Positions 2,118 to 15,308 of a stretch of 44,290 nt of DNA are shown here, one piece after another (position 1 is the stretch's first letter; the number at the start of each line of letters is the position of its first letter). Under the pieces are notes generated by a model that did no database searches, was not told the origin of the DNA, and worked only from the letters and a program-made list of their open reading frames with translations. Both the position numbers and the translations under genes were made by a program. The DNA lies in the NCBI GenBank assembly GCA_003249025.1, contig QBMH01000010.1, forward strand, positions 1 through 44,290, written 5' to 3'. Source of the stretch: Leptolyngbya sp. (GTDB lineage Bacteria > Cyanobacteriota > Cyanobacteriia > Leptolyngbyales > Leptolyngbyaceae).

Positions 2118-3002
2118 TTATTTACTCCGTTCCGTTTGTTTGAGGCGGCGAAGGATGTTAGCTGAAAGATTGGTGTCGGGTTGCGTCAATAGCCCTTGCG
2201 AAGGGCTAAACAGCACTGCCAGCACAAAGAACCCGCAGCTAATTAAGACAATGCAAGGTCCAGACGGCACATTTAGGTAATAGCTGAGGTACATGCCAAT
2301 CATGCTAGAAACCGCACCCAATAGCGCACCCAAGCCCATCATTTGGTGCAGTTCTTTAACAAGCAAGTAGGCGGTAGTGGCTGGACCCACCAGCAGCGCC
2401 ACCACCAGAACCACGCCAACGGTTTGCATACTGGCAATAATCGTCAGCGTGACCCCTGCCATCAAACCCAAATAAATACCATTGATTGGCAACCCGATCG
2501 CCTGTGCGCCTAAGCGATCGAAGGTGTAGAAAAACAACTCTTTATAAAACAGCCGAACCAGCACCAACACAACCAGCGTGATGATGGCAGTGCGAATGAC
2601 ATCGGCTTGCGTCACACCGAGAATGTCACCAAACAGAAAGCTATCGAGGTCGAGCTTGTTTCGCAGCAGGGTGATCAGCAACACGCCGAGGGCAAAAAAG
2701 CTGGAGAAAATCAGCGCCATCGCAGCATCCACTTTGATCCGAGTTTGGGAACGAATCCAGGCGATCAAAAAGGCGCTGATAATTCCCGACACAAATGCGC
2801 CAATTAGGATATTGATCTGCAAAAAAAAGGCGATCGCCAATCCGGGTAATACCGAATGTGCCATGACATCCCCCAACAGCGCCATTCGCTGCACCAATAG
2901 ATAAGTCCCTACAACCGGACATAAAATACCGGCGAGAACGCCAACCATCAAAGCATTTCGCATAAATTCAAAGCTAAGCGGTTCAAGCAACCATTCCAAC
3001 AT
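2118..3002 (-). CDS. znuB: Zinc/manganese ABC transporter, membrane permease (ZnuB/MntB family)
   Basis: Inner-membrane permease of a cluster-9 (family 9) metal ABC importer. The 294-residue protein is almost wholly hydrophobic, with about eight or nine predicted membrane segments. It carries the family segment GDVMAHSVLPGLAIAFFL, which precedes the ATPase-coupling loop, and a late GVVLVVALLVGPATTAYLL segment. It lies 32 bases downstream of the ATPase gene in the same orientation, so the two are cotranscribed from the divergent promoter next to znuA. Zinc rather than manganese is inferred from the ligands of the neighbouring binding protein, not from the permease. Confidence 0.9.
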   Translation of the reverse strand: MLEWLLEPLSFEFMRNALMVGVLAGILCPVVGTYLLVQRMALLGDVMAHSVLPGLAIAFFLQINILIGAFVSGIISAFLIAWIRSQTRIKVDAAMALIFSSFFALGVLLITLLRNKLDLDSFLFGDILGVTQADVIRTAIITLVVLVLVRLFYKELFFYTFDRLGAQAIGLPINGIYLGLMAGVTLTIIASMQTVGVVLVVALLVGPATTAYLLVKELHQMMGLGALLGAVSSMIGMYLSYYLNVPSGPCIVLISCGFFVLAVLFSPSQGLLTQPDTNLSANILRRLKQTERSK

Positions 3003-3034
3003 AAGCAGTGTATAGAAGCGATTAAATAGACGGT

Positions 3035-3784
3035 TTAACAGAAAAATGTGGTTTCGAGCGCATCGTGAAAATGCCTAGTTTGGGGCGTGATGCCATACGC
3101 CAGTTCAATATTGGTAGGGGTCATCACCTCTTTGGGTACACCTTGAGCAACGAGCCGCTGGTTTAGCAGCAGCAGTTGATCGTAGTGGTTCAAGATGCCA
3201 CCCCATTCGTGACAACTGATCAACAGCGTTTTGCCCTCTGCTTTCAGTTCATCGTAAATTTGAAAGATCAGTGCCTCTGTTTTTTTATCTACCGCTGCCA
3301 AGGGTTCATCCAGGAACAGCAGGTCGGCTTGTTGCGCGATCGCCCTCGCCAGAAAAACCCGCTGCTGTTGTCCACCGGAGAGCGATCCAATCGGGCGATC
3401 GCGTAAATCAAACAGTTCCACTCGCCGCAAAGATTCTTTGACAATTTCTGCCGACTGCCGACTGGGAGATCGAAACCATCCAGCATGAGTCGTCCGCGCC
3501 AGCATCACCACATTCCAAACCGTGGTGGGATAATCCCAGTCAATTTGCGATCGCTGTGGTACATAGGCAACCCGCTTCCGCTGCTGTTGAAGAGGCGCAC
3601 CTCGATAAATCACTTCGCCTGATTGTTTAGGAATCAACCCCAATAAAGCCTTAATCAGCGTACTTTTTCCGGCTCCGTTGGGACCCAGCAAACCAACCAA
3701 GATTCCCTCTGGAAGCCTGAAGGTTATATTTTCCAGTGCTTGTACGCTCCGGTAATTGACAGAGAGGTGCTGAACCAGTAGCAT
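3035..3784 (-). CDS. znuC: Zinc/manganese ABC transporter, ATP-binding subunit
   Basis: Cytoplasmic ATPase that powers metal import through the adjacent permease. Walker A GPNGAGKST lies at residues 34-42, the Q-loop at VPQRSQIDW (about 75), the signature LSGGQQQR at about 135 and Walker B LLFLDEPLAAVD at about 155. The switch histidine is in LLISCHEWG. Length (249 residues) is normal. The ATG start at 3784 is only 61 bases from the znuA start on the other strand. The intervening DNA holds a Fur/Zur-type operator, which predicts joint repression of both arms by metal. Confidence 0.93.
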   Translation of the reverse strand: MLLVQHLSVNYRSVQALENITFRLPEGILVGLLGPNGAGKSTLIKALLGLIPKQSGEVIYRGAPLQQQRKRVAYVPQRSQIDWDYPTTVWNVVMLARTTHAGWFRSPSRQSAEIVKESLRRVELFDLRDRPIGSLSGGQQQRVFLARAIAQQADLLFLDEPLAAVDKKTEALIFQIYDELKAEGKTLLISCHEWGGILNHYDQLLLLNQRLVAQGVPKEVMTPTNIELAYGITPQTRHFHDALETTFFC

Positions 3785-3791
3785 ATCAACC

Positions 3792-3811
3792 TGTAATGAT
3801 AACCATTCTCA
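3792..3811. promoter_or_regulatory. Fur/Zur-type operator in the znuC-znuA divergent promoter
   Basis: The core TGATAACCATTCTCA (3797-3811) is an imperfect inverted repeat of the TGA-AAn3TT-TCA type. The 19 bases from 3792 match the classical Fur-box consensus GATAATGATAATCATTATC at 15 positions by eye. Placement between divergent zinc-type transporter genes makes Zur the more likely regulator than Fur; that choice is inference. Confidence 0.7.
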
Positions 3812-3845
3812 TAATACTACTGGAAAACTAAGAGTCTGTAAACAA

Positions 3846-4925
3846 ATGATCGATAACCCATTTTCTTCAAGACTTTACCGGATGGGTGGATTTGCTGCCT
3901 TGTCACTGGTGCTCGGCATCAATGGCTGTAGCGCTCCTTCCCCAAATCAATCTGCTAGTCCCAGTCCAACCGATGCGACGAATGGCGCAATCACCAGTAC
4001 GAGCGAAAGCGTCGCACCAGGAGTCCGCCCCTTGGTCGTCGCGACGAACTCCGTTATCTGCGATGTCACCCGGCAAATTGCCGCCGACACAGTAAACCTT
4101 AAATGCCTGATTCCAGCGGGTGCCGATCCCCATGAATACCAGCCAAGACCCGAAGATAGCAAAGCGATCGAACAAGCAAAGTTAGTGTTGTACGGCGGCT
4201 ATAACTTTGAACATTTGCTGATTAAACTGATCACCGCTAGCTCAAACCCCGCCCCCAAAATTGCGGTTTATGAACTGGCGGTTCCCAAACCTCTCACATT
4301 TGAGGAAGATGGCAAAACCGAAACCGATCCTCACGTTTTTCACAGTGCGGCAAATGGGGTTCAAATTGCCGAGGTGATTGGCAAAAACTTAAGTCAGTTG
4401 GCACCTGGTAATGCCTCTCTTTATGCTACAAACACTAAAAAGGTGACGGATGATCTATCCCAAATCAACACCTGGATTAAGTCCGAAATTGCCACCATTC
4501 CGGCATCCCAACAAAAGTTAGTCACCACTCACGATGCCTTTGGCTACTATTCCAAGGAGTATGGGATTCCAGTTATCGGCGCGTTGCAGGGGATTAGCAC
4601 TGATGAAAAACCGACTCCGACACGAGTAGCAGAGTTGGTCAAAGCGATTCAAGCGGCGGGAGTGCCGACAATTTTTGCAGAGGCAACGGTAAACCCAAAG
4701 CTGATTGAGGCGGTGGCGAAAGAAGCAAATGTTAAGGTTGCAGACCAGGAGCTATTTGCGGATGGATTGGGCGAACAGAGCAGCATCGGCGAGACATATC
4801 AGAAGTTTTTTATTGCGAATACTAAAACTATTGTTGAAGGCTTGGGGGGCAAGTACACACCGTTTCAGCCTAAAACCTCTCGCTTTCCCAGTCTGAGGTA
4901 CTTAGCCGTAGCAAACGGTCACTAG
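3846..4925 (+). CDS. znuA: Metal ABC transporter substrate-binding lipoprotein (ZnuA/TroA type)
   Basis: Cluster A-I periplasmic binding protein that captures the metal for the ZnuBC importer. An N-terminal hydrophobic segment ends in an approximate lipobox LGINGC (Cys28), followed by a Ser/Pro-rich linker, so membrane anchoring is likely. Metal ligands can be placed by motif: His96 in GADPHEYQ, His163 in DPHVFH, His229 in TTHDAFGYY and Asp306 in FADGLGE. A third histidine rather than glutamate in the TTHD motif is the TroA/zinc pattern; manganese proteins such as PsaA and MntC have Glu there. The acidic/His-rich loop of many ZnuA proteins is absent. It is divergent from znuC and shares its operator. 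Confidence 0.9.
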   Translation: MIDNPFSSRLYRMGGFAALSLVLGINGCSAPSPNQSASPSPTDATNGAITSTSESVAPGVRPLVVATNSVICDVTRQIAADTVNLKCLIPAGADPHEYQPRPEDSKAIEQAKLVLYGGYNFEHLLIKLITASSNPAPKIAVYELAVPKPLTFEEDGKTETDPHVFHSAANGVQIAEVIGKNLSQLAPGNASLYATNTKKVTDDLSQINTWIKSEIATIPASQQKLVTTHDAFGYYSKEYGIPVIGALQGISTDEKPTPTRVAELVKAIQAAGVPTIFAEATVNPKLIEAVAKEANVKVADQELFADGLGEQSSIGETYQKFFIANTKTIVEGLGGKYTPFQPKTSRFPSLRYLAVANGH

Positions 4926-6586: not shown

Positions 6587-7732
6587 TCATGGACAACTGG
6601 GTAGGCAGACTGTGAAAACGCTGCCTTTTCCTGGCTCAGATTGGGCGGCGATCGCGCCTTGGTGAGCTTCCACAATCCGACGAGAGAGATAGAGTCCTAA
6701 GCCACTGCCAGAGCGCTTGCTTTCTCCCTGACGAAACCGCTCAAATAAGCTCTCTTGATCTTCCAAAGATATGCCGGAGCCAGTATCTTTGACCTCAACC
6801 ATAACCCAAGGAGTATCCAGCAATGTGTGTTGCGGATCGTCTCCTATGGAGCCTGTGATACACACCTGAATGGAGCCAGTATCGGTAAACTTAATGGCAT
6901 TGCCAATCAGGTTGGTAAACAAGCGACGTAGTTCTAGGCGATCGCCCATGACGGTCATCGGGTGTCCAGTTCCCTCTGGGTCAACCTGCATCGTCAGCAA
7001 CAAGCCTTTTTCTTCGGCTAATGGCAGTAGCTCGGTGACGATCGCCTGAAGAATGGGCTGCAAGTCACAGGGAGAAAAGCTGAGGGTTTTGTGTCCGGCA
7101 TCATGGCGATACACTTCCAGAATCATGTTGACCATTTGCAGCAGATTTTGGTTGCTGTGAACCATCATGGCGATTGCCTCTGTCATTTCGGGCGAAACTT
7201 CCCCAAATGCGTCTTGCTTAAACAACGTCAACATGCGATCGGCCGCAACCAAAGGTGTACGCAAATCGTGAGTTAATCGATAAACGAAATCTTCCCGTTG
7301 GCGGGACATTTGCTCCTGCTGCTGCTTTGCTGTCTCTGCCTCTTGCTCTAGTCGATACAGCCTTACAGCGCTTCGTAAAATGCGAGATAGGCGATCGGGC
7401 GATACTTTTGATTTAGGTAAATAGTCCGTTGCTCCTGCTTTCATCAGGTCTACTGCAATCTGTTCATCGCCCTGCCCAGTTAGCACAATAATGGGGGTAC
7501 GAACGTTGTCTCTCCGCAAGTCTTTCACTAGGGAGAGTCCATCTCGATCAGGTAGCTGATAATCCAAAAAAACGCAGTCAAATGCAGTACTTTTCAATTG
7601 CTCGATCGCGCTACTACAGTCTGTTGCCTCAGTAAGAGTCATTTCAACACCAGCCGCTTTTAGAGCGCGATGCACTGCCATCCGATCAACATCATCGTCA
7701 TCAACCACCAGGATTTCTAAAGGCTCTTCCAT
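6587..7732 (-). CDS. Receiver-histidine kinase fusion (REC-HisKA-HATPase)
   Basis: A 381-residue cytoplasmic signalling protein with an N-terminal receiver domain (residues about 5-122; acidic pocket VVDDDD, phospho-acceptor Asp57 in FLDYQLP, Lys in LPKSK). This is joined by a Gln/Glu-rich helix to a histidine kinase core. The H-box is YRLTHDLRTPL with His155; the N-box is NLIGNAIKF, with G1 VKDTGSGIS and G2 SGSGLGLYLSRRIVEAH. There is no membrane segment or sensory PAS/GAF domain, so it must receive its signal from a partner. It lies 57 bases downstream of the Rcp1-like receiver gene on the same strand, implying a phosphorelay operon. The REC-first order is common in cyanobacteria. Confidence 0.93.
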   Translation of the reverse strand: MEEPLEILVVDDDDVDRMAVHRALKAAGVEMTLTEATDCSSAIEQLKSTAFDCVFLDYQLPDRDGLSLVKDLRRDNVRTPIIVLTGQGDEQIAVDLMKAGATDYLPKSKVSPDRLSRILRSAVRLYRLEQEAETAKQQQEQMSRQREDFVYRLTHDLRTPLVAADRMLTLFKQDAFGEVSPEMTEAIAMMVHSNQNLLQMVNMILEVYRHDAGHKTLSFSPCDLQPILQAIVTELLPLAEEKGLLLTMQVDPEGTGHPMTVMGDRLELRRLFTNLIGNAIKFTDTGSIQVCITGSIGDDPQHTLLDTPWVMVEVKDTGSGISLEDQESLFERFRQGESKRSGSGLGLYLSRRIVEAHQGAIAAQSEPGKGSVFTVCLPSCP

Positions 7733-7789
7733 AAAAACAAGACATTTTCTGAATCATTCACCTGTCTGAAATAAGTCCGGATAAGGTCG

Positions 7790-8224
7790 TTAATTAGGCA
7801 ACTCACACAGTGCCCAATAGTTGTTCAACGTTGCCATCAGTTCTGCAAAGTTGGTGAATGTTACAGGCTTCAAAATGTATCCCGCTACGTTGAGATTATA
7901 TGCCTCAATGCGATCGAGGTCTTGATTTGAAGTTGTCAACACCACCACTGGAGTAGAACGTAATGTGTCGTCAGCGCGTAGCTCTTGCAAAAATTCCAAT
8001 CCCCCCATGCGCGGCATGTTCAGATCGAGCAAAATCAGCCTGCGAACTAAAGGCAGCACTGGGTGATTTTGGTTTTCTCCACGAAGCATTGCAAGTGCCT
8101 CAAGACCGTTGCTGGCAATGTATAGCGGATTCGTAATATTGTTACGCTTGAACGCCCGTTGCACATTCATCACATCTACTTCGTCATCCTCAACTAAGAG
8201 GATATTCATCAGTTTGTCTTCCAT
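7790..8224 (-). CDS. Single-domain response regulator, Rcp1-like
   Basis: A CheY-like receiver of about 144 residues with no output domain. Acidic pocket residues are in ILLVEDDEVD, the phospho-acceptor Asp is in LILLDLNMPRMGG, and the Thr/Lys pair is in VVLTTSN and YILKPV. The insertion between beta-3 and the acceptor (RGENQNHPVLPLVRRL) and the C-terminal tail are typical of the Rcp1/cyanobacterial-phytochrome partner subfamily. ATG at 8224 is preferred; the frame extends to a TTG at 8236. It precedes the receiver-kinase fusion on the same strand. No phytochrome gene is present in the window, so its partner is either the adjacent kinase or distant. Confidence 0.9.
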   Translation of the reverse strand: MEDKLMNILLVEDDEVDVMNVQRAFKRNNITNPLYIASNGLEALAMLRGENQNHPVLPLVRRLILLDLNMPRMGGLEFLQELRADDTLRSTPVVVLTTSNQDLDRIEAYNLNVAGYILKPVTFTNFAELMATLNNYWALCELPN

Positions 8225-8329
8225 TGCTAGCTGCAAAATAGATAGTTTATTAAGAGTTTGTTACGTGCATTACATTCATTTTACGCAGTGATTCCAGGGT
8301 TATTCGTCAGCCTAAAGAAAGATACCGAT

Positions 8330-8419: not shown

Positions 8420-11400
8420 TTACTTGGCGATCTGCCACGGAATCATCACATCTTCGGCAAGGCGCTGCGAGACAGTGTAGGCTCCATAGCGATTGAGGTG
8501 GCTTGGGTCTGAGAAATAATCGGGTTGAGTTGCCAAGGTGCTACTGAGATCGCGGTAGATGAAGCTAAACTCAGGCGCAAGGCTAAGCATGTGCTGCTGA
8601 AAGGCATCTTCATGGCGCTTACGCGAGGGGTCGAGATATTCCTGAGTGAGGGGCAAATTAACAAATACCAGCGGCAATTTTTTGGATTGGGCATACTTGG
8701 CGATCGCAATCATCGCTTCGGTTTGCACACCTTCCAGTCTAAAAGATTCGTAGTCAGAATCGTAGTCGCCCGAAACCCGCGCATATTTTTGATAGTAAGT
8801 CACCGGATTGAAGCGGATTGGCAGCGGCAAAAAACCGTCAATGTCGATCATGCCTTGACCATCGGCGGAGAGCGAAGGAGCGGAACTAGCCGCAGCAGCG
8901 GGAGAACTGGAATTGATTAAACTATCGGAGGATGCTAACACGCCCGATGAAACAGGCGGCATCAGGCTAATCAATTGCTCACGTAGCCGAGTTTTGAGGC
9001 GATCGCGTTGGGTATAGACCGCCGACAATCCGCCCAACTGCTTCGTTAGTGCCTCATTGATCTGCTGATATCGGTTCGTAGTTGCAGGAGCAACTTCTTC
9101 CGTCACGGATGCTGGGGTATCGTTGGGTTGCGGTTTAGCGGTGGGTGCCTGAGCCATTGTCGTGCTGGCGATCGGCGGTTTACCCGCAGTCAAGGTGCGG
9201 TAGCCTTCTGAGGTAACCATGCCGTTGTAGGTAATATCCATGCGGGCGCTGTTAAATGCCCGCGCCCCATCGGCAAACAGCAACAATTTTGGCAACTTAT
9301 CCTGGGGTAACACATGCTGCACCAGTAGATCAACGACTTGAGCCGTTGCGCCATTAATCCCAAAGTTAAAAATTTGTACGTTGGGATAGCCTTGTTTTAC
9401 CAACGCTTTTTCTAATGCTACTGGGTCAATGCCTCGTAGCGCCCTAGAACTGCCGACAACTAGCACATCGGGCGCGCCAAAAATTTCTAAGTAGCTTTTA
9501 TAAACGGCAAGCTGGCGATCGAACTGGCGGCTGTTAAAGCTGGGATAGTTCAGCGTTGTTGCGAGCGTGTCGGCTTTTGCCTGCATGGGAGAAGCAGGCA
9601 GTACTTTAGCATTGGGTGAATCAGGCGATCGCGGCAGAGATAGGATTGTTTCGCCCGGTTGAGTAAAGCTAGAAGCATTAAAAGCAGTGGGATCACTCGC
9701 TTTTTTACTAAGGGATAGATTTGAAAGGGTCGCGGTTGCTGATTTAGGGTTGCTCGTCAACGGAGCTGTAGCCGTTTGGGTTTGAGTTGTAGCCGTTTGG
9801 GAGGATAGCTGAAGCCAATAGCCGAGCAGCCAGTCTGTTTGGAGAACGAGCAGCAATCCCACAATGCTCCAAACTAGCCCAATACCTAATCGCTGGCGGC
9901 TTGGAGTGTCACGAGCTTCAGGTGTGGAAGAGGTAGGAGTGAGCGGGGCAGAGTCTAAAGGAATAAAGAATTGAGTTTGAATCAGCAATCGCTGAATTTT
10001 CTCCAAGGTTTGTTCTAGGATTTGAGCGATCGCCGGTTTCCGATCTGAGATCGGTTGAGATGACCACGGCACCATGGCACCCGCAGGCGACAGCAACTCA
10101 TCCACATGAATATCGGATGCGGCAAATTCTGGGGTAGCAGCGGGAACTAGGCGATCGCCGCTAAAATCAAGCCCATAGTGCCAGAGCGGTAGCCGCTGAC
10201 CAGAGCGCCGTCCGTAAACCCGCACACCAGACACCGAAGCAATGTGGAGGGGCTTCAAAAAACGAGCGATGGGTGCAGCCACGGCATCCTGTCGAGGACA
10301 GTTCGGTGCATCCGTCATAATGTGCAGCAAGCCAGCTTTTTGGCGAATCTGGACGCGAATACCGCCTGTTGCCAACTTGGCACTTAAATCAGGATTCACT
10401 AAGCGCGTTAGCAAAAAGGTAATTGCTGCCAAGTTACCTTGACGGGCAAGATCGAGAGTGGCGATCGCCAGTTCTGAGTTGTGGGCAGCGGGTAACTCTA
10501 GCCAGTGAACCCAGGCAGGAGGAGCAGTTATCGCCGTCGATGAAACAGTCGTTACGCCATAAAGGGCAGTCGCCTGAAGTCCTTGAGGCAGTAGTCTTTG
10601 CAACACAGGTTCAATCGCCGAGATCGCCCTCGCTTGGTTCGGCACCGTCCCCGCACTTCCGGCACAAGAGAGATGCAAGGTGGAATCTTTCAGCAGTGCC
10701 GACAATTCCATTGCCCGCCCTACCAACTGACGGTTTAGCAACTGAGCGATCGCTTGCACATCGCCCCATCGTGCCCAGTCTTTGAGGATGTCCTCAGCCG
10801 GGGTTAGATCGACCCGCAACACCCATTCATGGCGCGATTCACCACTTACCTGCCCGAACACTATCGCATCTCGAATCTGCTGAAGCTCCAGTTCTCTGAG
10901 CCGTTGGGCGATCACATCTCTTAAGAGAGCCAGATCGGGACTATAGGGCGACTCACAGACGATGATTAATCGGCTCGGTGATGCTAAATCGGGGGAGGAC
11001 AGCGACGGTTGCCCCGGATGAACTGCCTCCGTTTTGGCACGCACGGCAACGCTCAAACTGCTGAGCGCACTGCTAAGATACCGGGCGATCGCGTTCGGTT
11101 CTCCCGCTTGGGCTTGGGCGAAATAAGCGGCGACGGGATCAGTCTGAGCCAAACCAGGCTGCTCAGAATTTTCTAAAGGAGCGGTTGCAGCGCGATCTCC
11201 CAAGATTGCAGGCGCATTCCAGTTTAAATCAATTGCCTTTGTCCAAAGCGGCTGTTTGCCGCCAATGGTGCGCCCGTAGACAATCAGGCGATGAATGTGA
11301 GCAGATTTGAGCGGCGTAGAGCCTAGGGGTAGAGAGTGGTCTGAATCAGAGGCTAAAGCCTGTGATAATACTCCAACAATGGACTCTATCTCTGGACTGG

Positions 11401-11569
11401 GGTCGCTTTCTATCAAAATGTGAAGGTGATTTCCCTTCAAGCGAATTTTGATGTGGGCTTGGCTCTGCCCAAAAACCTGCTGTAGCCACTGTTCTAAGTG
11501 CCTACGAGCGATCGCAGATTTCTGGGGCGTTCCAGACGAAAGTGGGAGTTGTCCATCGGCGTTCAGCAT
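8420..11569 (-). CDS. Large membrane protein: four N-terminal repeats plus C-terminal SGNH/DUF1574-like domain
   Basis: This 1049-residue protein has three visible parts. Residues about 20-470 hold four degenerate copies of a roughly 90-110-residue module. Each copy ends in a 'YGR-G-PLW-hydrophobic' strand pair: LIVYGRTIGGKQPLW (95-109), AIVFGQVSGESRHEW (235-249), ATALYGVTTV (333-342) and VRVYGRRSGQRLPLW (449-463). A single membrane helix follows at about 561-587. Residues 670-1049 resemble SGNH/GDSL enzymes of the DUF1574 type: VLVVGSSRALRGID (Ser707 as likely nucleophile), FNFGINGATAQ, and a terminal DPSHLN (Asp1021, His1024). Low-complexity linkers (590-670, 800-835, 875-905) separate these parts. 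An esterase or acyltransferase acting outside the inner membrane is inferred. The gene is alone on its strand. Confidence 0.85.
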   Translation of the reverse strand: MLNADGQLPLSSGTPQKSAIARRHLEQWLQQVFGQSQAHIKIRLKGNHLHILIESDPSPEIESIVGVLSQALASDSDHSLPLGSTPLKSAHIHRLIVYGRTIGGKQPLWTKAIDLNWNAPAILGDRAATAPLENSEQPGLAQTDPVAAYFAQAQAGEPNAIARYLSSALSSLSVAVRAKTEAVHPGQPSLSSPDLASPSRLIIVCESPYSPDLALLRDVIAQRLRELELQQIRDAIVFGQVSGESRHEWVLRVDLTPAEDILKDWARWGDVQAIAQLLNRQLVGRAMELSALLKDSTLHLSCAGSAGTVPNQARAISAIEPVLQRLLPQGLQATALYGVTTVSSTAITAPPAWVHWLELPAAHNSELAIATLDLARQGNLAAITFLLTRLVNPDLSAKLATGGIRVQIRQKAGLLHIMTDAPNCPRQDAVAAPIARFLKPLHIASVSGVRVYGRRSGQRLPLWHYGLDFSGDRLVPAATPEFAASDIHVDELLSPAGAMVPWSSQPISDRKPAIAQILEQTLEKIQRLLIQTQFFIPLDSAPLTPTSSTPEARDTPSRQRLGIGLVWSIVGLLLVLQTDWLLGYWLQLSSQTATTQTQTATAPLTSNPKSATATLSNLSLSKKASDPTAFNASSFTQPGETILSLPRSPDSPNAKVLPASPMQAKADTLATTLNYPSFNSRQFDRQLAVYKSYLEIFGAPDVLVVGSSRALRGIDPVALEKALVKQGYPNVQIFNFGINGATAQVVDLLVQHVLPQDKLPKLLLFADGARAFNSARMDITYNGMVTSEGYRTLTAGKPPIASTTMAQAPTAKPQPNDTPASVTEEVAPATTNRYQQINEALTKQLGGLSAVYTQRDRLKTRLREQLISLMPPVSSGVLASSDSLINSSSPAAAASSAPSLSADGQGMIDIDGFLPLPIRFNPVTYYQKYARVSGDYDSDYESFRLEGVQTEAMIAIAKYAQSKKLPLVFVNLPLTQEYLDPSRKRHEDAFQQHMLSLAPEFSFIYRDLSSTLATQPDYFSDPSHLNRYGAYTVSQRLAEDVMIPWQIAK

Positions 11570-11871
11570 GAGAGCATTAACAGTAGCAACTGATTTGATA
11601 GAAACAGGGCTTAATCAAGAGCGATCGTGCCCCATAGAAATAACATATCCTCATCAGGTTTGGCATAGCTTAGGATAAAGTTGCAGTCTCGATGCCATGT
11701 TTGATGCTGGACATATACCTCGTACCAGTATTGAACACCTTATTTTAAAAAGCGCTCAGGTAATATTGCTTTTATTCAAGCTAAAATTTTATCCAAGTTA
11801 AATTTGCTTCTTTTCACGCTTTGTTACTGCATAGAAAAGTCTCTTCATAAAAATTACCGTAAAATCACACC
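11570..11871. other. AT-rich divergent intergenic region
   Basis: These 302 bases lie between two divergent starts and should contain both promoters. The right half (about 11740-11870) is AT-rich with TTTTAAAA-like stretches. I see no RNA gene, repeat or clear operator in it. Confidence 0.4.
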
Positions 11872-12117
11872 ATGCAAACACCCGATCGCTTGCCCACAAA
11901 AGCCCCCGTTTCTTCTCTTCCTGTCCCCGCTTTAGAGCTATTCATTAGTCTGGCAACGGCCCCCCTCTTGATTGGATTAGTTGGCGGAAAAGCCCTGGCA
12001 GAGGTTTCTCAAGAGATTGGCAAGTTAGCAGAAGAAGTGTTTCGGGGCGATCGCCTGCCGCTTTTAAACCTGTCCAACCCAACCTTGCCATTGATTGATA
12101 CAGTCAATCCGGATTAG
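11872..12117 (+). CDS. Small hypothetical protein
   Basis: An 81-residue protein with a hydrophobic central segment (LELFISLATAPLLIGLVGG, about 22-40), followed by an amphipathic helix AEVSQEIGKLAEEVFRGDRLP. The second part resembles small cyanobacterial proteins with the ending 'EELFRGDRLP', which I recall but cannot name. It lies 98 bases upstream of ppc in the same orientation. Function is unknown; a single membrane-anchored helix hairpin is the simplest reading. Confidence 0.65.
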   Translation: MQTPDRLPTKAPVSSLPVPALELFISLATAPLLIGLVGGKALAEVSQEIGKLAEEVFRGDRLPLLNLSNPTLPLIDTVNPD

Positions 12118-12215
12118 GTCAGGCATGTTTGATAAAAATATTTGGTCACCTGAACCACTTCACAGGTAGAAAATAGCCCATAGAATACTTTGATGTCTTA
12201 CTAGAAAGAGCCTCC

Positions 12216-15200
12216 ATGAGTGTGACACGTTCTTCAGCGGATGATGCGTTTAGTTCCAGTACAGTAATTGAATCTAGAACCGTGGCAGAAGTGCCTATGG
12301 CATCCACCTCCGAGCTTTTTCTTAAGCTGCGGCTTAAATCGGTTGAAGAAACTTGGGAGTCCGTTTTACGACAAGAATGTGGACAACAACTCGTCGATTT
12401 GCTGAACCAGCTTCGTGACTTATGTTCTCCTGAAGGTCAGGTAAACACTTTTATCGAGTCTGAAGTCCTTAAGGTGGTTGAAAAGCTTGATCTAAATGAA
12501 GCCATCCGGGCTGCTCGTGCGTTTGCTCTTTATTTTCAGCTAATTAACATTGTTGAACAGCACTACGAACAACGGGATCAACTGCAATATCGGGCGACGG
12601 TGCGGGATGCCAGCATTCTAGATGCTGGCACTTCTAGCCCTGGCGAAGAAACTACCCCCGCTAGCCGATTAGAAGCCGATCTGTTAGAAAAAACGCTTCA
12701 AGATCCGGCAACTCGGCGAGCATTAGGCACCTTCCATTGGTTATTTCCTAAACTGCAAGCGCTGAATGTTCCACCTCAGCAAATTCAAACCTTAGTCGAT
12801 CAGCTAGATATTCAGTTGGTCTTCACCGCCCACCCTACCGAAATTGTTCGCCATACCATTCGCGATAAACAGCGCCGGATTGCTACCGTTTTACGACAGC
12901 TTGATCAAGTAGAAGAACGCCAAGCTTTCCAAGGATTAGATATTGATTCAGGTGACGAGAACCAACTGCGGGAGCAACTTACCGAAGAAGTGCGGTTGTG
13001 GTGGCGAACTGATGAATTGCATCAATTTAAGCCAACAGTGCTGGATGAAGTGGACTATACACTTCACTATTTTCAAGAAGTGCTGTTTGACGTGATTCCC
13101 CAGTTGCATCAGCGGTTTAAACGGGCGATGAAAGAATCTTTTCCTGGAATTAAGCCGCCCAGTTACGATTTTTGTCGATTTGGCTCGTGGGTCGGCTCCG
13201 ATCGCGATGGTAATCCCTCCGTCACCCCGCAGGTCACTTGGCAAACCGCCTGCTATCAGCGCAACTTAGTGCTGGATAAATACATTGGTTCAGTAAGCAA
13301 GCTGATCGATCTGCTGAGTCTTTCCTTGCACTGGAGCGATGTCTTGCCCAACTTGCTAGAGTCATTGGAGCAAGATCAACTGCAACTTCCTGCCATTTAC
13401 GACAAGCTGGCAATTCGCTATCGTCAAGAACCCTACCGTCTCAAGCTGGCGTATATCCAAAAGCGATTAGAAAATACCCGCGATCGCAGCCTCAAAATGT
13501 ATAAGGGCGAGTATGTTCAGCAAACTCACTCTGACCAAGAACGCGCCACGTTCTATCGTTCCGGCGCAGAATTTTTGGCAGAACTGCGGCTGATTCAGAG
13601 CAACCTTTCCGAAACTGGACTCACTTGCTGCGACCTAGAAACTCTCATCTGTCAGGTTGAAATTTACGGCTTTCATCTTGTTCACCTAGATATCCGCCAG
13701 GAAAGCACCCGCCACGCGGACACCATTGATGAAGTGGTGGAATATATGCAATTGCTGCCCAAGCCCTACCGCGAGATGACTGAAGCCGAACGGATTGACT
13801 GGCTTTCTACAGAACTGCAAACTCGCCGCCCTTTAATTCCGGGTGCGCTGCCGTTTTCTGAAAAGGCAAACGAAGCGATCGAAACCTTTCGGATGATTCG
13901 CACCCTGCATGATGAATTTAGCCCGGAGATTTGCCATACCTACATCATCAGCATGTGCCACGATGTCAGCGATATGCTGGAAGTGCTGCTGTTGGTAAAA
14001 GAAGCGGGACTCTATGATCCGGGAACGGGCATTAGCACGATCCGCGTGGTGCCTCTATTTGAAACAGTGGAAGATTTACAAAAAGCGCCTGCTGTTTTAA
14101 CTCAACTCTTTGAAATGCCGTTGTACCGCACCATGATGGCAGGTGGGAACAATCCCGATGGCGAGATGCATCTGCCCATAGAAAAGCGATCTTGGCGACT
14201 CAAGCCGCATTTGCATGAGGTGATGCTGGGCTACTCCGACAGCAACAAAGACTCTGGCTTCCTCAGCAGTAATTGGGAAATTCACAAAGCTCAGCAAGCA
14301 TTGCAATCCTTGGCTGAACGCTACGGCATTTTACTTCGGATCTTTCATGGTCGGGGCGGCTCAGTCGGGCGAGGCGGTGGTCCTGCTTACGAGGCAATTC
14401 TGGCGCAACCGGGACGCAGTGTCAACGGACGCATCAAAATTACGGAGCAGGGGGAAGTGTTAGCTTCTAAATATTCCCTACCAGAGTTAGCGTTGTATAA
14501 TCTGGAAAAGGTCGCTTCGGCAGTGCTTCAGAGCAGTTTGCTTCGCACTGGGTTCGACGAAATTGAGCCTTGGCACGAGATTATAGAAGAGTTAGCAGCG
14601 CGATCGCGCACTCACTACCGCGCTTTGATTTACGAGCAACCCGACTTCATCGATTTTTTCCATAGCGTCACCCCAATCGACGAAATTAGCCAGTTACAGA
14701 TTAGTTCTCGTCCGGCGCGGCGCGGCGGCAATCGCGACCTAGCAAGCCTAAGAGCGATCCCCTGGGTGTTTAGCTGGACTCAGAGCCGTTTGCTGCTCCC
14801 TGCTTGGTATGGCGTGGGCACTGCCCTGCGAGACTTTTTGCGGGATCATCCTGAAGAACACCTGAAGCTACTGCGCTACTTCTATTTTAAATGGCCGTTC
14901 TTCAAGGTTGTGATTTCTAAAGTGGAGATGACCTTATCCAAGGTTGATCTGCAAATTGCGCGACATTACATGAGTGAACTGGTACATCCCGAAGATCGGG
15001 AACGATTTGAGCCGGTATATGAACAGATTGCCAATGAGTTTTACCTAACTCGCGACATGATTCTCACCATCACGGGACACAAGCGCCTGTTGGATGGCGA
15101 CCCAGATTTGCAGCGATCGGTACAGTTACGGAACGGTACGATTGTGCCCCTTGGCTTCCTGCAAGTTTCTCTATTAAAACGCCTGCGTCAAAGCAAAGAT

Positions 15201-15308
15201 GAGGCGGCATCGGGCATCGTGCGATCGCGCTATAGCAAGGGCGAACTGTTGCGGGGTGCATTGCTAACCATTAATGGCATCGCTGCCGGAATGCGAAACA
15301 CAGGTTGA
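12216..15308 (+). CDS. ppc: Phosphoenolpyruvate carboxylase
   Basis: PEPC carboxylates phosphoenolpyruvate with bicarbonate to oxaloacetate, the main anaplerotic reaction in cyanobacteria and second to Rubisco in carbon fixation. The 1030-residue length is typical of cyanobacterial forms, which have a longer N-terminus and inserts compared with the 883-residue E. coli enzyme. The catalytic-histidine motif is [19 protein letters not shown] (about residue 206). Others visible are [15 protein letters not shown] and the glycine loop [14 protein letters not shown] (about 711). The family C-terminal [10 protein letters not shown] is complete. No plant-type N-terminal phosphorylation motif is apparent. 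The ATG at 12216 follows an AGAAAGAG stretch. It appears to be monocistronic, with a convergent kinase operon downstream. Confidence 0.98.

Follow-up and report, generated by a model that had tools for sequence, protein, structure and literature searches.

The window analyzed here, a 44,290-nucleotide stretch of DNA from Leptolyngbya sp., carries on its minus strand a gene (8420..11569, ATG start) encoding a DUF1574 protein of 1049 amino acids, made up of four N-terminal modules, one transmembrane (TM) helix, and an SGNH domain predicted to be extracytoplasmic. Module copy 1 (11213..11515, minus strand, like all features of this gene given below; residues 19-119) contains VYGRTIGGKQPLW, copy 2 (10793..11125; residues 149-259) a degenerate VFGQVSGESRHEW, copy 3 (10487..10786; residues 262-361) a degenerate LYGV...PPAW, and copy 4 (10154..10459; residues 371-472), the best conserved of the four, VYGRRSGQRLPLW. 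The single TM helix (9821..9892; residues 560-583) is followed by a linker rich in Ser, Thr, Gln, and Pro, and then by the SGNH/DUF1574 domain (8423..9562; residues 670-1049), whose predicted fold is DltD-like. Within this domain lie the codon of the predicted nucleophile Ser707 (9449..9451; motif GSSRA), the codons from Asp1021 to His1024 (8498..8509; D-P-S-H), which constitute block V of the SGNH triad, and a mostly variable insert modeled with low AlphaFold confidence, in which a helix is predicted (8828..9166; residues 802-914). The catalytic codons were checked against the DNA. This arrangement of four modules, one helix, and an SGNH-like domain had been proposed for the open reading frame in the original prediction and is confirmed by our analysis.

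The divergent neighbor of the gene is ppc (12216..15308, plus strand), encoding phosphoenolpyruvate carboxylase, from which it is separated by an intergenic stretch of 646 bp (11570-12215). The relatives found for the 1049-aa protein all come from cyanobacteria, and ppc lies divergently upstream of the DUF1574 gene in each of the 21 that have enough flanking sequence, so that the divergent pair is kept across cyanobacteria. We nevertheless regard ppc as genomic context rather than as a functional part, since evidence for a shared pathway was not found. The DUF1574 gene is followed, in the same orientation, by genes for a short response regulator and for a hybrid of receiver and histidine kinase (6587-8236, minus strand); a link to these was rejected, such genes being near the DUF1574 gene in no relative. 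Further along, at 2118-4925, lies what appears from its sequence to be an ABC transporter of the zinc/manganese type, with the permease and ATPase genes on the minus strand and the binding protein gene divergent on the plus strand. No Rfam RNA was found within the window, and a scan for promoters and terminators gave hits at chance level only.

The modules, each of about 100 residues, span residues 19-472. When segments aligned over 19 orthologs were compared profile to profile, all six pairs of copies matched one another with E-values of 6e-8 to 2e-15, whereas the control comparison of module segments with slices of the C-terminal half gave 0.019 or worse; the self-alignment thus bears out the four repeats. 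A profile built solely from the modules of nine other, unrelated proteins encoded in this genome also recovers all four copies, copy 2 in two pieces; the main pieces have i-E-values between 1e-4 and 4e-13, and reversed or shuffled controls gave nothing below E 1 with this profile (lowest 2.0). The number of copies is exactly four in 23 of 23 relatives, one set being cut at a contig edge. The 'YGR-G-PLW' strand pair by which the repeats were first recognized is literal in copies 1 and 4 only; in copies 2 and 3 it has degenerated to VFGQ..G...EW and LYGV...PAW. AlphaFold predicts a repeated fold in this region, with the order helix-strand-strand-helix-strand-strand (alpha-bb-alpha-bb) in each copy.

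The Pfam family DUF1574 (PF07611) matches the SGNH domain of all 19 orthologs (best 9.5e-12), the match excluding the modules and the helix. The 1049-aa protein itself scores 24.2 bits as a whole and 28.0 bits with the domain alone, below the curated cut-off of 29.1, whereas several orthologs (L005, L007, L014, L016, and L018; 29.4-41.9 bits) exceed it; by orthology, the 1049-aa protein is a divergent DUF1574 member. Pfam DltD (PF04914) also matches 5 of the 19 orthologs, while PF16822 and PF04311 do not match the 1049-aa protein, and PDB sequence searches with the single protein and with profiles returned nothing significant. In a 2022 review (PMC9487903), DUF1574 is named as one of five SGNH families in which no member has a known function, in agreement with the initial remark that no function had been described for such an architecture, and we found no functional study of DUF1574 or of cyanobacterial MBOAT-SGNH systems in the literature.

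The predicted structure of residues 670-1049 has a confident SGNH-like core, with block-mean pLDDT mostly of 82-96, and the best PDB fold match of the model is DltD (E 1.2e-4, probability 1.00), although the global TM-score is low (0.39). An SGNH-like domain is thereby recovered for the core, the large insert being the part modeled with low confidence. Ser707 and the Asp1021-His1024 pair had been named as the likely catalytic set, and all three residues prove to be invariant in 19 orthologs, giving the Ser of SGNH block I (GSSRA) and the Asp-x-x-His of block V (SDPSHLN). In the AlphaFold model these motifs are placed after a strand-turn-helix and ahead of a C-terminal helix. Arg709, Arg712, Asn739, and Gly740 are likewise invariant, the last two within a stretch that resembles block II (NFGINGAT). 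Of the blocks that supply the oxyanion-hole residues of SGNH enzymes, Gly in block II and Asn in block III, a canonical GxND block III was not evident.

A single hydrophobic stretch was found in the protein, at residues 560-583, close to the helix earlier placed at about 561-587. The positive residues around it (K/R) average 2.3 before and 1.5 after the helix, which is a weak bias, and the net charge is slightly reversed; the charge rule thus gives no guide to the topology. The four modules, which precede the helix, are most likely in the cytoplasm. An external SGNH domain is plausible, because it would have to face the shuttle tyrosine of an MBOAT (see below) and because a shorter DUF1574 paralog of the same genome, which has no modules, starts with a signal-peptide-like segment, as fits an SGNH domain outside. 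Genes for a protein resembling bacterial sugar transferases (253 aa) and for an amidase-like protein adjoin that of this paralog (475 aa; L029:5553-6980, minus strand, on contig C333).

In order to find a partner for the SGNH domain, the genomic context of the relatives is informative. The gene immediately downstream of the DUF1574 gene, in the same orientation, encodes an MBOAT in 16 of 23 relatives; these MBOATs share 57-63% identity with the single MBOAT of the Leptolyngbya genome, and the distance between the two genes ranges from a one-base overlap of start and stop to about 440 bp. In a phylum sample of 244 evenly drawn genomes (58 with DUF1574 and 186 without), 33 of the 57 DUF1574 genes listed are followed within 1 kb by an MBOAT gene in the same orientation. 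An MBOAT is present in all 58 DUF1574-positive genomes vs 47 of the 186 others (Fisher P 2e-27, a value that ignores relatedness). Polysaccharide genes do not recur beside the DUF1574-MBOAT pair.

The association concerns one MBOAT lineage. In a maximum likelihood tree of 55 MBOATs, every linked MBOAT, the Leptolyngbya MBOAT, and one MBOAT per genome from 14 genomes lacking the linkage form a single clade with 100/100 support, and extra MBOATs from the same genomes sit outside it. Ten genomes of the same class that have an MBOAT and lack DUF1574 contain only distant MBOATs (identity of 40% or less). The sole MBOAT gene of the Leptolyngbya genome (1264-2748, minus strand) is on contig C87, not on the contig of the DUF1574 gene, and the two genes are not adjacent in this genome or in its nearest relative (L002); the pairing here therefore rests on orthology. 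We conclude from these sequence comparisons that one particular MBOAT is the likely partner of the DUF1574 protein.

MBOATs of this clade end in an acyl-shuttle hexapeptide, [FY]IYF[DE][FY], which is present in every MBOAT C-terminus read. In the C87 MBOAT it is YIYFDF, and its Tyr492, together with His337 (IWHGAAWGF), is invariant in 15 sequences. Experiments on PatA/PatB showed that acetyl travels from the MBOAT to the serine of the SGNH protein on the C-terminal FxYxxF peptide, a shuttle that the authors proposed as general for MBOAT-SGNH pairs (PMC12148441). As for other possible acceptors, the Leptolyngbya genome gave no match at E 0.01 to AlgX (PF16822) or to PatB/DUF459 (PF04311), no match to DltC, and no DltA above the cut-off, which leaves its two DUF1574 proteins as candidate acceptors for the single MBOAT.

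The linkage to one MBOAT clade and the shuttle hexapeptide point to an MBOAT-SGNH acyltransferase and not to an esterase. We consider it probable that the 1049-aa protein is the SGNH half of such a system of the cyanobacterial envelope. At the cytoplasmic side, the MBOAT would pick up an acyl group, with acetyl supplied by acetyl-CoA as the most likely one, and its His337 would help to load this group onto Tyr492 of the C-terminal peptide at the outer face. From Tyr492 the acyl group would pass to Ser707 of the SGNH domain and on to a hydroxyl on a polymer that is exported or part of the envelope, probably a polysaccharide, while the presumably cytoplasmic modules would serve as a docking or localization element shared with other proteins. 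The choice of acetyl is suggested by the precedents of PatA and AlgI and by the ester-linked acetyl groups known on cyanobacterial exopolysaccharides (PMC4594306). The proposal of a membrane-anchored SGNH enzyme modifying the envelope or a polysaccharide is thus supported; of the two activities first suggested, esterase or acyltransferase, the evidence favors the second, with a specific MBOAT.

An SGNH domain acting as a membrane-anchored esterase that deacylates an envelope polymer or lipid, with the MBOAT linkage reflecting an opposing pair of acylation and deacylation, appears unlikely to us. It would agree with the mostly hydrolytic nature of SGNH folds, the weak matches of Lipase_GDSL_2 in 10 of the 19 orthologs, and the GDSL lipases, including cyanobacterial alr1529, that rank second among the fold matches. 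However, DUF1574 ranks first among the families matched and DltD, a transferase, first among the folds, and the shuttle tyrosine of the MBOAT needs an SGNH acceptor, for which this genome offers no AlgX or PatB alternative.

The acceptor could also be sought in the short exported paralog of contig C333, which keeps the SGNH motifs behind its signal-peptide-like start and which is found together with the long form in many other genomes. That it is the real partner of the MBOAT, the four-module protein being a non-catalytic or divergent scaffold, seems quite improbable, given that the MBOAT-linked gene in the relatives is the long four-module form, that most f7-family genomes sampled hold only this long form with the MBOAT adjoining, and that the triad of the long form is invariant. 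The paralog could nevertheless work with the MBOAT, in place of the long form or alongside it. Carrier-protein-dependent transfer of an aminoacyl group (D-alanine), as by the Dlt system, is suggested by DltD being the nearest solved fold and by the Pfam DltD matches in 5 of 19 orthologs, but it is disfavored to the point of being hardly credible by the lack of DltC and of any DltA above the cut-off, the strongest DltA-like matches falling in frames of 2519 and 1381 aa as expected of multidomain synthetases, and by a shuttle motif on the MBOAT itself, like in acyl-CoA-using PatA and AlgI, with no separate DltX.

The preferred reading, an MBOAT-SGNH acyltransferase, invites comparison with three known systems. 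DltD (PF04914) is a D-alanyl transferase that works with the MBOAT DltB and the shuttle peptide DltX. The 1049-aa protein, for whose model it is the best PDB fold match, shares with it an N-terminal membrane anchor, the Ser and Asp-x-x-His motifs, and a likely MBOAT partner, but has about 550 extra N-terminal residues bearing the four modules, in a genome where DltC is lacking and DltA does not rise above the cut-off, and where the hexapeptide is on the MBOAT. The peptidoglycan O-acetyltransferase PatA/PatB has the same two-gene logic, with an SGNH protein (DUF459) anchored by one helix and an MBOAT with a C-terminal FxYxxF-type shuttle motif and a catalytic His (PMC12148441); the SGNH domain here is of the DUF1574 and not the DUF459 family, and extra modules precede the helix. 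Alginate O-acetylation by AlgI/AlgJ/AlgX likewise combines an AlgI-type MBOAT (PF03062) with an SGNH partner, but the Leptolyngbya genome gave no ALGX-family match, nor was any alginate gene context seen.

The modules extend well beyond DUF1574 proteins. A profile made solely from the DUF1574 modules finds at least nine other proteins encoded in the Leptolyngbya genome (E 9e-16 to 4e-5; L035-L043, on contigs C127, C115, C53, C22, C33, C333, C147, C217, and C385), each with one copy. Where the remainder of these proteins matches Pfam, the partner is polysaccharide deacetylase, PGA_cap/CapA, a type IV pilin-like G/H domain, a YncE-like propeller, or an AAA ATPase, the module being C-terminal in the last. 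In other genomes of the phylum, its fusion partners are PrsW protease, pentapeptide repeats, PGA_cap, or membrane proteins that could not be classified. Of the 244 genomes sampled, 69 carry the module, with up to 15 copies per genome, and all 69 belong to the class of the Leptolyngbya genome. The module is usually N-terminal and often ahead of a single helix; in some proteins, namely L042, L051 (a 569-aa ORF), and L066 (a 581-aa ORF), it is C-terminal, with no obvious adjacent membrane helix. Such C-terminal modules without an adjoining helix indicate that the module is not tied to membrane anchoring.

No family in Pfam, NCBIfam, or the PDB recognizes the module, which is apparently undescribed so far. 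Resemblance of module 1 to Y1_Tnp/IS200 transposases (E 0.002-0.1) was seen for one member of 13, with the other members unmatched, and was attributed to chance. The fold search gave weak similarity to BON, GerMN, and FliF ring-building-motif folds, which are tandem alpha-beta-beta-alpha-beta domains, but with E-values of 3e-3 or worse, probability of about 0.5, TM-scores of at most about 0.3, and no sequence match, so that these values are a lead only and not evidence of membership. The reuse of the module across unrelated proteins makes it a general cyanobacterial part and not a sensor specific to this enzyme. We infer that it is a shared docking or localization element instead of the regulator implied by the original prediction of a regulated enzyme, although it may possibly sense a ligand. 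A more speculative and rather doubtful extension is that the module acts in the cytoplasm as an address or assembly domain specific to cyanobacteria, gathering envelope-building proteins (acyltransferase, polysaccharide deacetylase, CapA-like, and pilin-like proteins) in one shared complex or at one membrane site; the DUF1574 enzyme would then have four copies because it is the hub.

In summary, MBOAT-SGNH acyltransferase systems are of a known kind; what is new is the tie between DUF1574 and a specific cyanobacterial MBOAT, and a widely reused module. DUF1574 thereby gains a testable function, with a named MBOAT partner and with acyl-tyrosine and acyl-serine intermediates to be expected, and the MBOAT-SGNH pair is a natural candidate for acetylating cyanobacterial exopolysaccharides. 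The ligand of the module, once solved, would inform on many uncharacterized cyanobacterial proteins together.
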